Part shown: piece after piece, positions 1,716 through 26,170 of the stretch | Position numbering within the stretch: position 1 is the first letter of the stretch | Layout of the letters: each line of letters begins with the position of its first letter | NCBI RefSeq assembly: GCF_002158905.1 | Contig: NZ_CP021431.1 | Location: forward strand, 1,426,001 to 1,490,000 | Source: Yoonia vestfoldensis | GTDB taxonomy: Bacteria > Pseudomonadota > Alphaproteobacteria > Rhodobacterales > Rhodobacteraceae | Length of the DNA stretch: 64,000 nt | Reading direction: 5' to 3' | Program-made: the position numbers and the translations under genes | The notes under the pieces: generated by a model | The model's database searches: none | What the model was told of the DNA's origin: nothing | Seen by the model: only the letters and a program-made list of their open reading frames with translations

Positions 1716-4070
1716 ATGCGCAATCTCAGTTCTATCCCCCTGTCCCGCAAGCTACCTGTCATTATCGCAGGTATCGGCCTGGCCGCGGCTGTCGCTGTGT
1801 CCGTGCTTAGCTATTATGATTTTCGCAAAACGATGCTGGAATCGGCCACGGCCAATTTCGAAGTCATCGCCGATGAACGCGGCATGGGCATCGAAACCTG
1901 GCTGGACGAGCTTGATCGCAATATGCAGGCCTATGCCAACATGCCAACCATCATTGATGCGGCGCAGGCGCTGTCATCCTCTTTCGGCATGTTGGACAAT
2001 GCCGCCGATCTGCAATCGTCCTATATTGCCAATAATCCCCATCCTGCGGGCCAGAAAGCATTGCTTGACCGCGCGCCAGAGCTGCTGCCGTACAATTTCC
2101 ATCACGGCGTGCTGCACCCGTTCTTTCGCAATGTCGTCGCATCGGGGGGGTATAGCGATGTCTATCTGCTGAACATGGCAGGCGATCTTGTCTATTCCTA
2201 TGCCAAGAATTCCGATTTCGCGACCAGCCTCGTGTCGGGTCCCTATCGGGACACGGGCCTGGGTCAAGCCTTCCGCGCCGCGCGTGATGGCACTGTGGGA
2301 GAGGTCTATTTTTCGGATTACGCAGCCTATCAGCCCGGCGGCGGCGTTGCGGCCTTTTTGGCGACCCCGGTGCAAAACAACGAAGGGGTGATCGTCGGGA
2401 TTTATGCCGCGCAGCTGTCGCCCGCCAATCTTGACCGGATCGTGAACCGCGAAGTGGGGCTGGGGGCAACCGGCCAGATCTATGTCGTCGGTGCCGATAT
2501 GAAAACGCGCAGCGACTCGCGGTTTGCAGGCCGGTTTGACGCTTTGCATGACGCCAGCGGATTGCCGCAGGTCACGGCAGGTGTCGCAGGGACCGCGATG
2601 GCCTTTGAAAATGTGCCGGGGATCAACGGTCAACCCGTCATTGCCAAGGTTGTCGATATCGACGTGCTTGGCACGCGCTGGTGGGTCATCGGCGAAATGG
2701 ACGTGGCAGAGGTGATGATCCCTGTGGATGAGATCCGCACCAAGAAAGCCTTGCTGGCCTTGGTCGTCATGGGGCTGGCTGCGCTCATGGGCTATCTGAC
2801 CGCGCGTTCTGTGCTGGGGCCTTTGGAACGGTTGCGTGACGGGATGGGCCGGGTGGCGCGGCGCGAATATGACGGGATCGTGCCGGATACCGGGCGCGGC
2901 GATGAATTGGGCGTGCTGGCCAAGGCCCTGGTCGATTTTCGCGATAAGCTGCAGGCCTCTGATGCGGCCGAACAGGAACGCAAGAAAGTGCAGGCCGAAC
3001 AGGCGCGTGTCGTTCAGGAATTGAGCAAGGCAATGGTCGCCTTGGCCGAGGGTGATCTGACAGCTGTCATTCAGCAGCCCTTTGACGAAAGCTACGAACA
3101 GCTGCGGCTGGATTATAACCGGACCGTCGCCAACCTGAGCACGACCGTCGGGTCGGTTGTCACCAGCGCGGTCGGCATCCGCGAACGCGCCCTCGAGATG
3201 AGCAGTTCATCTGACGACCTGTCGCGCCGGACCGAGAATCAGGCCGCCACATTGGAAGAAACCGCCGCCGCATTGGACGAGCTGACGGCAAGCGTGCGCT
3301 CTGCTGCTGACGGCGCGCGCGAGGTGGAATCCATTGTGACGAATGCCCAGGATGATGCCGTCGCCAGTGAACCGGTTGTGCAAAAGGCGGTTGCCGCGAT
3401 GACCGCGATCGAAAAATCCTCGGATGAAATCTCGCAGATCGTCGGCGTGATCGATGATATCGCCTTCCAGACCAATCTGCTTGCGCTGAATGCGGGGGTC
3501 GAGGCCGCCCGCGCTGGGGATGCCGGCCGCGGTTTCGCGGTGGTCGCATCCGAGGTGCGCGCGCTTGCGCAACGCTCTTCGGAGGCGGCCAAGCAGATCA
3601 AGACATTGATCGCGGGCAGTTCCGATCAGGTCGCCAATGGCGTCAGCCTGGTCGGCGAGGCGGGCGAGGTTCTGACACGGATCGCGAAACATATCAGCCA
3701 TATCTCGGGGCTGATCTCTGAAATCGCGGCAGGTGCTGCGGAACAATCGACAGGTCTGGCCGAGATCAATATCGGGGTCACCCAGCTGGACAAGGTAACG
3801 CAGCAAAACGCCGCCATGGTCGAAGAAGCGACAGCCAGCAGCCATGCGTTGAACGCCGAGGCGGGCAATCTGGGCGAACTTGTCGCGCGGTTCCAGCTGG
3901 ACAGCACGACAGCCCCCGCTGCCGCCGCGCCGTCACGCCCTGCCGAAAATGTCATGGTGTTCCAATCGCCACGCAGCCAGCAGAAACCCGCCAAGCCAGC
4001 CGCCGCCGCGATGTCTGGCACCTATGGCCGGACCGAAAGCGCCGGCAATGATGATTGGCAGGACTTTTAA
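1716..4070 (+). CDS. Methyl-accepting chemotaxis protein
   Basis: A 784-residue transmembrane chemoreceptor. TM1 is near residues 13-33. A large periplasmic ligand-binding region with a Cache-like look follows to about residue 340 (LNMAGDLVYSY, TPVQNNEGVIVGIYAAQLS). TM2 is near 345-365, then a HAMP segment (LGPLERLRDGMGRVARREYDG). The cytoplasmic signalling hairpin contains the conserved tip region (IDDIAFQTNLLALNAGVEAARAG). The last five residues, DWQDF, resemble the xWxxF pentapeptide that tethers CheR in other receptors. A purine-rich AGAGG lies six bases before the ATG. It stands alone, with no che genes nearby. The perfect CtrA-type box upstream suggests cell-cycle-linked control. Confidence 0.93.
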   Translation: MRNLSSIPLSRKLPVIIAGIGLAAAVAVSVLSYYDFRKTMLESATANFEVIADERGMGIETWLDELDRNMQAYANMPTIIDAAQALSSSFGMLDNAADLQSSYIANNPHPAGQKALLDRAPELLPYNFHHGVLHPFFRNVVASGGYSDVYLLNMAGDLVYSYAKNSDFATSLVSGPYRDTGLGQAFRAARDGTVGEVYFSDYAAYQPGGGVAAFLATPVQNNEGVIVGIYAAQLSPANLDRIVNREVGLGATGQIYVVGADMKTRSDSRFAGRFDALHDASGLPQVTAGVAGTAMAFENVPGINGQPVIAKVVDIDVLGTRWWVIGEMDVAEVMIPVDEIRTKKALLALVVMGLAALMGYLTARSVLGPLERLRDGMGRVARREYDGIVPDTGRGDELGVLAKALVDFRDKLQASDAAEQERKKVQAEQARVVQELSKAMVALAEGDLTAVIQQPFDESYEQLRLDYNRTVANLSTTVGSVVTSAVGIRERALEMSSSSDDLSRRTENQAATLEETAAALDELTASVRSAADGAREVESIVTNAQDDAVASEPVVQKAVAAMTAIEKSSDEISQIVGVIDDIAFQTNLLALNAGVEAARAGDAGRGFAVVASEVRALAQRSSEAAKQIKTLIAGSSDQVANGVSLVGEAGEVLTRIAKHISHISGLISEIAAGAAEQSTGLAEINIGVTQLDKVTQQNAAMVEEATASSHALNAEAGNLGELVARFQLDSTTAPAAAAPSRPAENVMVFQSPRSQQKPAKPAAAAMSGTYGRTESAGNDDWQDF

Positions 4071-4273
4071 CCCATCATCAAGGTCCAATTTGCGGGCGCC
4101 CGTGACGGCGCAACCCTGACCCAGGGCGCCCGTAACCCCACCCACGGCAGCGCAAGACCGGCGATCACCGCCATTGGCCAGCGCCGCCGTGATCTTCTTG
4201 GGCACATCGATCTGCGAATGCACGTCATGCCTGCAGTAAAGCTCTTTTTGACCTATCATCCTGGAGGAATGCG

Positions 4274-5254
4274 ATGATCAAATCTATCCTTGGCACATCA
4301 GCCATTGTCATCATGGCGGCTTGGCCCGCCTTGGCCCAAAATGTTGACCGGACCGGCTGGCCCAGCAGTTTCACACTTGGCACGGCCTCGCAGGGCGGCA
4401 CGTTTTTCGTTTATGGTTCGGGCTATGGCAACCTGATTGCCGAAGAATTGGGCCTGCGCGTCGGTATCGAAATTACCGGTGGCGCGATGCAGAACATGGC
4501 CTTGGTCCATACCGGCGAGGCTGATATGGGGATGACCACATTGGGCCCCGCACAAGCCAGCATCGCAGGCCGCAGCCCGCTGGTTCCGGGCCTGGAGATG
4601 ACCAATGTCTGCGCGCATTTCCCGATGTATGAAACCCCGTTCCACGCGGTGGCCTTGGCCAGTTCCGGCATCACCGCGCTAAGCGAGATCCCCGCAGGCG
4701 CCCGCATCGGATTCGGGCCGGCAGGATCGACAGGTGATACCTATTTCCCCGAAATGATCACCGCGCTGAACATCCCCTTCGAGCATCGTAATGGCGATTG
4801 GAACGAATTGGGGCGCCAGTTGAAAGATGGTCAGATCGATGTGATCGGCTTTGCCGCCGGTGTGCCGGTTCCGCAGGTGGCCGAGCTTGAGGCATCGACT
4901 GCGGTGAATATCATCGAATTCACCGCCGAAGAACAGGCGCTGATGACCGCGCTATTCCCGGTGGCCGATTACACCATCCCCGCCCGGACCTATGCCAGCC
5001 GCAGCGCGCCTGCGCGCGCGGTATCGATGTGGAATTTTGCCATCGTCAATTGTGATCTGCCCGAAAGCTTTGTCTATGAAGCGACCCGCGTCGTCATGCA
5101 GGGCAATGCCCGGATGATGCAGATCAATGCCGCGGCGGCGACCACCGTGTTTGAAAACTGGGACAAGAATACCGTGATCCCCTGGCATCCGGGCGCTGCG
5201 CGTTGGTTCATTGAAAACGGTGCGTCCATTCCGGCGGAGATGATCAAGTCGTAA
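4274..5254 (+). CDS. TAXI-family TRAP solute-binding protein, copy 1
   Basis: A 326-residue periplasmic binding protein with a Sec signal peptide (residues 1-21, cleavage after PALA). The TAXI hallmark is the segment TLGTASQGGTFFVYGSGYGN, which in this family binds small organic acids or amino acids. RBS GGAGG lies six bases before the ATG. The next gene but one repeats it at the same length with long identical blocks, including the C-terminal NGASIPAEMIKS against NGADIPADMIKS. Copy 1 differs locally, for example EELGLRVGIEITGGAMQNMA against EELGVTGGAEVTGGPMQNMA. The copies may thus differ in ligand or expression (inference). No promoter was clearly recognised in the 203-bp gap upstream, which holds a direct repeat GGGCGCCCGT. 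Confidence 0.9.
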   Translation: MIKSILGTSAIVIMAAWPALAQNVDRTGWPSSFTLGTASQGGTFFVYGSGYGNLIAEELGLRVGIEITGGAMQNMALVHTGEADMGMTTLGPAQASIAGRSPLVPGLEMTNVCAHFPMYETPFHAVALASSGITALSEIPAGARIGFGPAGSTGDTYFPEMITALNIPFEHRNGDWNELGRQLKDGQIDVIGFAAGVPVPQVAELEASTAVNIIEFTAEEQALMTALFPVADYTIPARTYASRSAPARAVSMWNFAIVNCDLPESFVYEATRVVMQGNARMMQINAAAATTVFENWDKNTVIPWHPGAARWFIENGASIPAEMIKS

Positions 5255-5270
5255 ACGGGGCAGGCTGTTA

Positions 5271-5462
5271 GCAGATCACGCCTTATGCAGATCACGGTGG
5301 AAGCAGATCAGCTCGTCAGCGGATCGCATCGTTTGGATATCCATTCATAAACAGAGGACGCTGTTAGCAGTTCACGCCCTATGCAGATCAGGCTGCTAGC
5401 AGATCACGCCATAAGCAGATCGCAATATTTGCAGGCCATGCCGCAAACAGATCACGCCGACA
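5271..5462. repeat. 16-bp-period tandem array of 12 degenerate units between the TAXI genes
   Basis: An octamer related to GCAGATCA recurs at exact 16-bp spacing: 5271, 5287, 5303, 5319, 5335, 5351, 5367, 5383, 5399, 5415, 5431 and 5447. Five of the 12 are exact GCAGATCA, and others differ at one or two bases (GCGGATCG, GCAGTTCA, GCAGATCG, ACAGATCA). The units at 5335 and 5351 are the most decayed. A 32-bp higher-order period is clear: GCTGTTAGCAGATCACGCC at 5264 is closely repeated at 5360 and 5392. The array fills the space between the stop codon of copy 1 and its terminator-like hairpin. There are no spacers, so it is not CRISPR. Confidence 0.85.
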
Positions 5463-5465
5463 AAA

Positions 5466-5498
5466 AACAGGGCCGGTGCCGCTTGCATCGGCCCTGTT
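5466..5498. terminator. Terminator-like hairpin after TAXI copy 1
   Basis: The arms AACAGGGCCGGTGC and GCATCGGCCCTGTT pair with one mismatch around a 5-base loop. The stem core AGGGCCGGTGC is almost the same as in the terminator behind copy 2, so it was probably duplicated with the gene. Here the plus strand lacks a T-run after the stem, while an A-run precedes it, so it may terminate poorly forwards and better on the minus strand. Confidence 0.55.
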
Positions 5499-5724
5499 GC
5501 GACTTGTGCTGCCTGCGTTGTCGCGGGGCGCGCGCCGCGCCCGTTGGGTCATTTCCGGCTGCGGCATATGGTCCGATCGCCCGCAGATCCCGCGATCGCC
5601 TGTTATTTTGGCCAGCATCTGCGCCGCAGGACAGAGGATTGACCGCAGCGCGCAGGCATCTGCCGAGATATTGGGCGCAGCCTGCCATTGCAGGCGGCAA
5701 AGCGTCTTGCGACAGCTTAAGCGT

Positions 5725-5752
5725 TTGACAGTCTGGTCCCACTCGCTATTTT
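5725..5752 (+). promoter_or_regulatory. Sigma-70-type promoter for TAXI copy 2
   Basis: TTGACA at 5725-5730 and TATTTT at 5747-5752 are separated by 16 bp, about 75 bp before the ATG. The leader that follows can fold: GTCGC-AAAT-GCGAC is nested within AACCGC...GCGGTT (5762-5800) and followed by TTTT. This may be a leader hairpin affecting readthrough. Confidence 0.5.
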
Positions 5753-5826
5753 CGCGCAACGAACCGCAGGCGGCCGTCGCAAATGCGACCCGTCGCGGTT
5801 TTGCTTTATCATCTGGGAGGAATTCG

Positions 5827-6807
5827 ATGATCAAATCTATTCTTGGCACATCAGCCATCGCACTCGTGGCAGCGCTGCCCGCCTTGGCACAAGATGTCGA
5901 CCGGACCGGCTGGCCCACCAGCTTTACCGTTGGCACAGCCTCGCAGGGTGGCACGTTTTTCGTTTACGGATCGGGCTATGCCAACCTGATTTCCGAAGAA
6001 TTGGGCGTCACCGGCGGTGCCGAAGTCACCGGCGGCCCGATGCAGAACATGGCCTTGGTCCATACCGGCGAGGCCGCGATGGGCATGACCACGATGGGCC
6101 CCGCACAGGTCAGCATCGCGGGCCAAAGCCCGCTGGCACCCGGTCTGGAAATGACCAATGTCTGCGCGCATTTCCCGATGTATGAAACCCCGTTCCACGC
6201 GGTGGCCCTGGCCAGCTCCGGCATCACATCGCTGAGCGAGATCCCCGCAGGCGCGCGGATCGGTTTTGGCCCGGCAGGATCGACAGGCGATACTTATTTC
6301 CCCGAGATGATGACCGCGCTGAACATCGAATTCGAACGTCGCAATGGCGGTTGGAACGATCTGGGCGGCCAGTTGCAGGATGGTCTGATCGACGTGATCG
6401 GCTTTGCCGCCGGTGTGCCGATCCCGCAGGTGGCCGAGCTTGAGGCATCCAATGATGTCAATATCATCGAGTTCACCGCCGAAGAACAGGCGCTGATGAC
6501 CGCGCTGTTCCCGGTGGCCAATTTCGACATCCCCGCCGGTGCCTATGCCAGCCTGGATGCGCCCGCGCGTGCGGTGTCGATGTGGAACTTTGCCATCGTC
6601 AATTGTGATCTGCCCGAAAGCTTTGTCTATGAAGCGACCCGCGTGATCATGGAAGACAATGCACGGATGATGCAGATCCATTCCTCGGCCGCGACCACCG
6701 TGTTTGAAAACTGGGACAAGAATAGCGTGATCCCATGGCATCCCGGTGCCGCGCGTTGGTTCATCGAAAACGGTGCCGATATTCCAGCGGATATGATCAA
6801 GTCGTAA
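5827..6807 (+). CDS. TAXI-family TRAP solute-binding protein, copy 2
   Basis: A 326-residue periplasmic binding protein, the tandem paralogue of the gene at 4274. It has the same signal peptide (residues 1-21, ending PALA) and the TAXI motif TVGTASQGGTFFVYGSGYAN. The start is the ATG after GGGAGGAATTCG; the frame is open for over 300 bases further upstream, but the paralogue, signal peptide and RBS fix this start. It is followed by a good terminator and then the fused TRAP permease. Copy 2 is therefore the more likely cognate partner, made in excess over the permease through partial termination (inference). The substrate is unknown. Confidence 0.9.
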   Translation: MIKSILGTSAIALVAALPALAQDVDRTGWPTSFTVGTASQGGTFFVYGSGYANLISEELGVTGGAEVTGGPMQNMALVHTGEAAMGMTTMGPAQVSIAGQSPLAPGLEMTNVCAHFPMYETPFHAVALASSGITSLSEIPAGARIGFGPAGSTGDTYFPEMMTALNIEFERRNGGWNDLGGQLQDGLIDVIGFAAGVPIPQVAELEASNDVNIIEFTAEEQALMTALFPVANFDIPAGAYASLDAPARAVSMWNFAIVNCDLPESFVYEATRVIMEDNARMMQIHSSAATTVFENWDKNSVIPWHPGAARWFIENGADIPADMIKS

Positions 6808-6815
6808 ACAAGCCC

Positions 6816-6846
6816 AGGGCCGGCGCAGTTTGCACCGGCCCTTTTT
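6816..6846 (+). terminator. Intra-operon terminator between binding protein and permease
   Basis: AGGGCCGGCGC and GCACCGGCCCT pair with one mismatch and are followed by TTTTTC. It starts nine bases after the stop codon of TAXI copy 2 and ends 61 bases before the permease start. A partially leaky terminator here would give more binding protein than permease. Confidence 0.7.
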
Positions 6847-24867: not shown

Positions 24868-26124
24868 ATGACAGATATCACCGCCCTGATGGCGCAAATC
24901 GGCGCTGATGCGCGCGCCGCCGCCACCGTGCTGGCCACCACCGGATCGGACCGCAAAAAGGCCGCGCTGATCGCTGCGGCCGATGCGATCTGCGCCAATA
25001 TCGCACCAATCCTCGACGCCAATGCCAAGGATCAGGCTTATGGCGCCGAAAAAGGCCTTAGCCCCGCGATGATGGACCGGCTGATCCTGACCGAACCGCG
25101 CATTCGCGCCATGGCCGAGGGGCTGCGCAATGTCGCAGCCCAGCCTGACCCGGTGGGCGCGGTGATGGCGCAATGGGATATGCCATCGGGGCTGCATATC
25201 CGGCGCGTGCGCACGCCTTTGGGGGTGGTCGGCGTGATCTATGAAAGCCGGCCCAATGTGACGGCGGATGCCGGCGCGCTTTGCCTGCAATCGGGCAATG
25301 CGGTGATCCTGCGGGGCGGGTCGGAAAGCTTTCATTCCGCGACGGCGATCCATCATTGCCTGCAAACCGGGCTGGAACAGGCGGGCCTGCCTGCGACGGC
25401 GATCCAGCTGGTGCCGACGCGCGACCGTGCCGCTGTTTCTGCGATGCTGACCGCGACGGATCATATCGATGTGATCGTGCCGCGCGGCGGCAAGGGGTTG
25501 GTGGGGCTGGTCCAGCGCGAGGCGCGGGTGCCGGTCTTTGCCCATCTCGAAGGGATTTGCCATATCTATGTGGATGCCAGCGCCGATCCTGCCATGGCGC
25601 GCGACATCGTGCTGAACGCCAAAACCCGCCGCACGGGTATCTGCGGGGCGATGGAATGCCTGTTGATCGACCGGCAATTCCACGACCAGCACGGGCCGAT
25701 CCTGATAGAGGCACTGCTGCAAGCCGGGGTCGCGGTGCGCGCCGATGGCGATCTGGCCAAGATCCCCGGCACAATCCAGGCGCAACCGGGTGATTTCGGA
25801 TGCGAATTCCTCGACATGATCTGTGCGGCCAAATTGGTCGACGGTGTGGATGCCGCCATCGGGCATATCCGGCACTATGGCTCGCAGCATACCGATGCGA
25901 TCATCACCGAAGATGCGCAGGCCGCCGCCCATTTCTTTGCCCAGCTCGACAGCGCGATCTTGATGCATAACGCCTCGACCCAATTCGCCGATGGCGGTGA
26001 ATTCGGCATGGGGGCGGAAATCGGCATCGCCACCGGCAAGATGCATGCGCGCGGGCCTGTCGGGGCCGAACAGCTGACCAGCTTCAAATATCTTGTCAGT
26101 GGCAAAGGGGCCCTGCGCGGCTAA
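24868..26124 (+). CDS. proA: Gamma-glutamyl phosphate reductase
   Basis: A 418-residue aldehyde-dehydrogenase-fold enzyme reducing glutamyl phosphate to the semialdehyde with NADPH. The catalytic Cys is C259 in [13 protein letters not shown]. Other conserved stretches are [29 protein letters not shown] and [21 protein letters not shown]. It is the last gene of obgE-proB-proA, and a 16-bp tandem triplet begins at its stop codon. Together with ornithine cyclodeaminase at 57.9 kb, the window holds two proline routes. Confidence 0.97.
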
Positions 26125-26170
26125 GGCCCCTGTCTTCTAAGGTCCCTGTCTTCTCCGGCCCCCGTCTTCT
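26123..26170. repeat. Three tandem 16-bp repeats after proA
   Basis: AAGGCCCCTGTCTTCT, AAGGTCCCTGTCTTCT and CCGGCCCCCGTCTTCT follow each other without gaps at 26123, 26139 and 26155. The first unit includes the last two bases of the proA stop codon. The last unit runs into the composite repeat. Confidence 0.8.

Follow-up and report, generated by a model that had tools for sequence, protein, structure and literature searches.

Introduction

Repeats of several kinds recur at regular spacing or at gene ends in bacteria. CRISPR arrays consist of near-identical repeats split by unique spacers, plasmid iterons are regularly spaced direct repeats, and the MIRU repeats of mycobacteria overlap stop codons, are dispersed and have comparatively long units. 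The BRE repeats of Bordetella are mostly intergenic, some of them reaching a few bases into the end of a gene; they vary in tandem number and have units of about 90 bp (partial ones of 40–60 bp) that are found at many loci in several genomes (PMC3110155).

The array described here lies in a 64,000-nucleotide stretch of the Yoonia vestfoldensis genome (hereafter, the window, to which all positions refer), behind the stop codon of a TAXI-type solute-binding protein gene. It resembles bacterial minisatellites (VNTR loci) in being head-to-tail, intergenic, subject to higher-order block duplication and present in one lineage only; unlike them, its units have strongly diverged and are merely about 55% alike (mean identity among units within a block, 0.55), which suggests that the array probably no longer varies in unit number. 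As in MIRU, the repeat unit includes the gene end, but there is a single locus and the unit is shorter. The BRE repeats are likewise intergenic or overlap gene ends, but they are multi-locus while this 16-bp array is single. Regular direct repeats are shared with CRISPR and iterons, but the units here are not near-identical and have no unique spacers between them. Assignment to CRISPR was rejected on the period of 16 and the within-block identity given above, and a Pfam search of five window proteins returned no Cas or Rep protein. Among the literature matches listed, considered by title and the start of the abstract, no title dealt with this array or with stop-anchored 16-bp arrays.

Structure of the array

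The array comprises 13 gapless 16-bp units on the plus strand (5254–5461), arranged as two 96-bp blocks and one further unit in the order A B C D E F A' B' C' D' E' F' A''. Block 1 (A–F) spans 5254–5349; block 2 (A'–F', 5350–5445) is identical to it at 67 of 96 positions with no indel, and is followed by the final unit A'' (5446–5461). The 16 bp immediately upstream (5238–5253, plus strand), the final codons of the gene and the TA of its TAA stop, are in phase with the array and form a candidate seed unit, F0.

The original prediction, made from the letters alone, was of 12 units spaced 16 bp apart with an additional 32-bp period. The spacing is confirmed at that place, with a lag-16 identity of 0.53 against a shuffle mean of 0.25 and none of 5000 dinucleotide shuffles as high, but the count is 13. 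Identities at lags 16, 32, 48, 64, 80 and 96 were 0.53, 0.56, 0.56, 0.56, 0.52 and 0.69, and no shuffle reached any of these six values (shuffle maximum 0.44 over lags 5–99). The 32-bp period thus exists but is not the sole long one, the six-unit period of 96 bp giving the highest identity, and Tandem Repeats Finder (TRF) described the array as 96 bp × 2.0 (score 218), 32 bp × 2.4 and 16 bp × 3.6. When the window was scanned at a step of 5, the top six positions for lags 16, 32 and 96 each fell in the array, and the 211-nt post-stop stretches of 80 named loci, used as a control, peaked at 0.46 at any lag from 8 to 99.

With tandem, constant-length, head-to-tail units of a size within the usual range of about 10–60 bp, the array is a minisatellite by structure. 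The local origin by tandem duplication that also defines this class is indicated indirectly, by the in-phase gene end, the duplication of the 96-bp block, and the absence of the array from the second gene copy and from five relatives. A coding array was rejected, as every one of the six frames holds 1–7 stops, although the longest open run reaches 48 codons.

The TAXI gene pair and its hairpins

A tandem pair of genes, both of which we take to encode TAXI-type binding proteins (the Pfam family found is NMT1_3), stands between an MCP gene upstream and a DctM-type permease gene downstream. Copy 1 (4274–5254, plus strand; NMT1_3, E 5.6e-55) is intact and fast-evolving and codes for 326 aa, while copy 2 (5827–6807, plus strand) lies directly before the permease gene, as does the single gene of the relatives. 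The protein both starts and ends with MIKS (window 4274 and 5240–5251). The duplicated block, 4246–5256 versus 5799–6809, is 87% identical. In an 11-protein tree the two copies are sisters with support of 83/86, which is modest and under the starred threshold, and their branch lengths are 0.19 (copy 1) and 0.008 (copy 2). Pairwise dS is 0.385 between the copies, 0.844 between copy 1 and its counterpart in the relative G016, and 0.591 between copy 2 and that counterpart; the share of dS attributable to copy 1, derived from such pairwise values, is about 0.32 via G016 and 0.37 via the Yoonia locus L089. Copy 1 changes much faster than copy 2, synonymous sites included, and is probably a lineage-specific duplicate. 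A promoter-like site, TTGACA-16-TATTTT (5725–5752, plus strand), precedes copy 2, and the stretch containing it can also be aligned with G016 and Yoonia M30B39; the scan listed none before copy 1 in 4000–4273.

Hairpins with nearly the same stem had been noted behind both copies, at very different distances from the stop codons, with the array filling the difference, and the distances were borne out. The hairpin behind copy 1 (5466–5498, plus strand) has a 14-bp stem and begins at the 212th base after the stop, that behind copy 2 (6816–6842, plus strand) begins at the 9th, and the two are 83% identical over 35 bp; the 13 units fit cleanly into the space between the stop and hairpin of copy 1. 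The copy 1 hairpin, at most a putative terminator, has no T run behind its stem and was not listed by the terminator scan; the copy 2 hairpin was listed on the minus strand only, being missed on the plus strand despite the TTTTT after it. The gap between stop and hairpin is 8 nt in copy 2 and 5–10 nt in three of the relatives (L088–L090). For the fourth locus, L091, the script chose another stem, at 46, and an AGGGCC stem close to the stop is visible by eye, as it is in G016. Hairpins were found within the 157 nt searched at 77 of the 80 named loci, with a median start of 23.

Distribution in related genomes

Five relatives, G016, the Yoonia loci L088 and L089, and the Loktanella MAG loci L090 and L091, have a single gene copy here and no array. 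In its own genome the array matched nothing but itself below E 0.2 by BLAST, and in a search of 56 genomes of the genus, among them its own, with no more than 14 candidates scored for each, the sole match at E ≤ 0.01 was again itself; at E ≤ 1, some match was given by 47 of the 56, the foreign ones being short under the same limit of 14 candidates. A pattern of three cores at 16-bp spacing, with up to 3 mismatches, was also searched in 345 family genomes and matched seven, including that of the array. The six foreign genomes hold two three-unit 16-bp arrays (L255 and L258), one of 16 bp × 2.5 copies (L257), an exact 8-bp repeat (L256), and in two cases nothing that TRF recognised as an array close to the match. 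The L256 repeat, from a genome of the same family, is GCAGATCA × 5 at 1501–1540. Those of L255 and L258 (at about 1491–1541) belong to two other genera and start at the TGA stops of unrelated frames, permease-like and RodA/FtsW-like as named by eye, and the reverse complement of the array core contains the TGA of these stops.

Probable origin from the gene end

The end of copy 1 (5238–5253) matches the 13-unit consensus, which was built without it, at 12 of 16 positions; elsewhere in the window the share of plus-strand 16-mers matching as well is 9.4e-5, and none match better. Since the gene end is also in array phase, it is the most likely source of the array. In copy 2 and the five array-less relatives the gene end already matches the unit consensus at 9–12 of 16, and this sequence is therefore older than the array. 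Derivation from the gene interior was rejected, the local score being 20 against a shuffle mean of 20.4, with 298 of 500 shuffles as high.

The next 16-mer past the gene end matches the unit core at 7/9 in G016 and in L088 (Yoonia M30B39), and matches of at least 7/9 are found at 0.28% of window positions, so that this 16-mer could have served as a slippage seed or partner. Such a step is only suggested, because the corresponding matches in copy 2, L089, L090 and L091 are just 2–4/9 (5/9 in copy 1); the two 7/9 matches, from closely related genomes, count as a single event.

A second 16-bp array in the window (26121–26170) has three units and starts from the TAA stop of a gene (24868–26124) that we call proA-like by name and whose product has a Pfam hit to Aldedh. 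Its orthologue in G016 has a single unit at the stop, as seen by eye on a plus-strand match, and the three-unit array is a younger example of such a start at a gene end. Together with the stop-starting arrays of G286 (L255) and G075 (L258), it suggested a 16-bp habit of gene ends, but a larger sample gave no support for this. Outside the window, 2.69 Mb were sampled: 800 kb of this genome, 400 kb of G016, 800 kb from 20 other genus genomes, and the 80 named loci, each of which has a TAXI gene at its centre. With genes called by a simple custom script, and with ten loci fetched by the core motif (L253–L262, four of them copies of this array) left out of the count, there were 48 non-coding arrays, of which three had period 16, compared with seven of period 12, six of period 15 and five of period 19. 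Eight of the 48 were stop-anchored, versus 4.9 under random placement (P 0.10). A separate scan of stops (416 + 177 + 350 + 23) gave 14 matches, one being a run of masked N; two had period 16, one of which is the proA-like array. Period 16 is not favoured elsewhere in the samples taken. A gene end may be a natural site for tandem duplication, tolerated because the first unit retains the frame and the stop.

Two further observations concern tandem arrays. In a Rhodobacteraceae MAG, a 16-bp × 2.9 array (L103, 2964–3010) lies 8 nt past a predicted stop. Non-coding tandem arrays numbered 19 in 94 kb of non-coding sequence of the G000 sample (40 stretches) versus 2 in 46 kb of that of the G016 sample (p 0.015), and 21 in 130 kb versus 4 in 58 kb with a slightly different gene caller.

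Estimated age and probable order of events

Jukes-Cantor divergence is 0.39 substitutions per site between the two 96-bp blocks and 0.68 among units within a block, while the two-line divergence expected since the gene duplication at the copy 1 synonymous rate is 0.64–0.75. As a rough estimate, the units would be about as old as the gene duplication, and the block duplication would have some 50–60% of that age, given that array sites are assumed to change at the copy 1 synonymous rate and under a clock, with saturating distances and modest tree support. The earlier proposal that the array expanded in the 3' flank once the gene had been duplicated is supported: the copies are sisters (at the modest support noted), the five single-copy relatives are array-less, and the unit divergence fits.

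We infer the following course of events. Within this lineage, a TAXI-TRAP binding-protein gene would have been duplicated. Copy 1 would have been redundant and relaxed, and in it 16 bp of the gene end would have been copied in tandem by replication slippage and a six-unit block then duplicated once, leaving 13 units between stop and hairpin. The insertion would have been harmless, because the first unit preserves the reading frame and stop, and would since have been decaying by point mutation. A likely side effect is that the hairpin, now about 200 nt past the stop, would be out of reach of the terminating ribosome, and its displacement may change the stability or termination of the copy 1 mRNA. 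Slippage as the mechanism, neutrality and the effect on the mRNA are all inferred. The array is, we believe with good confidence, a slippage-born, decaying minisatellite in the tolerant 3' flank of a duplicated TAXI gene, probably functionless, although its spacing has remained unexpectedly regular. Of the three roles first envisaged for it (protein-binding array, structured RNA spacer, variable minisatellite), the minisatellite fits best.

Alternative explanations

If the array were instead under selection, it might provide protein-binding sites (core AGCAGATCA, phased on the DNA at 16 bp) or, at the RNA level, a series of sites in the 3' UTR, with phase and core kept and the spacers free to drift. 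After the block duplication, changes were less frequent in core than in spacer columns (10 of 54 cells versus 19 of 42; Fisher p 0.007, with columns chosen post hoc), and this contrast was rare in neutral simulations (0.0035–0.011, for the nine-column core only) and in parameter-matched ones (0–0.018 in sets of at least 120; 0.1 in a set of 10). The other simulation measures were not clearly unusual, core conservation itself scoring 0.006–0.053 in neutral and 0.08–0.125 in matched simulations and the correlation measure 0.06–0.29 and 0.30–0.47, respectively. The array also shows zero indels in about 54 estimated substitutions, where the rate measured over 1288 aligned non-coding bases, 18 indels to 198 substitutions, predicts about 3–5 (about 4.9 for the array, P(0) 0.0075; 0.034 for the blocks alone); the probability rises to 0.07 at one indel per 20 substitutions and 0.17 at one per 30. 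Both tests were designed post hoc, their p values of about 0.01 are sensitive to the chosen core and indel rate, and an indel-free array is easier to recognise; neutral decay is therefore favoured and selection kept as a minor possibility. Units A, A', F and F' match the core at just 5–6/9, and no second array of this kind appeared in the searches of its own genome or of the other 55 genus genomes at the E values and candidate limit given above. On balance, selection on the array is unlikely. The specific form in which a minisatellite born at the gene stop was recruited as phased 8–9 bp core sites in the 3' UTR of the new paralogue, with core and 16-bp phase both selected, would be a long shot.

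A structured RNA spacer, or a Rho-loading (rut) region ending or protecting the copy 1 transcript, is very improbable. Gene end, array and hairpin together (5236–5510) fold well (z -4.15, 0/200 shuffles as good), and the copy 1 hairpin has no T run of its own, but the array alone is unremarkable in the sense direction (z -1.81, 7/200) and on the reverse strand (z -0.81, 43/200); much of the fold signal therefore probably comes from the hairpin. Nothing in the array matched Rfam at the gathering score, the only matches in the window being three tRNAs. A rut site was rejected, the array having no bias of C over G (0.265 versus 0.256; C minus G averages 0.008, sd 0.097, in 1036 other 3' flanks). 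Insertion of a foreign repeat element, in place of local expansion, would suit the clean occupation of the gap between stop and hairpin but is scarcely credible for an array that has an in-phase unit in the gene end itself and nothing similar in its own genome or genus at the E values above.

Significance

On the minisatellite reading, this locus lets one trace how a tandem array began at a gene end at about the time when the gene was duplicated; the paralogue and the relatives still show the state that lacks it. Its functional importance would be small unless the exact 16-bp phase proves to be selected; were the array indeed recruited as phased sites, a random slippage event would have been turned into a regulatory element.
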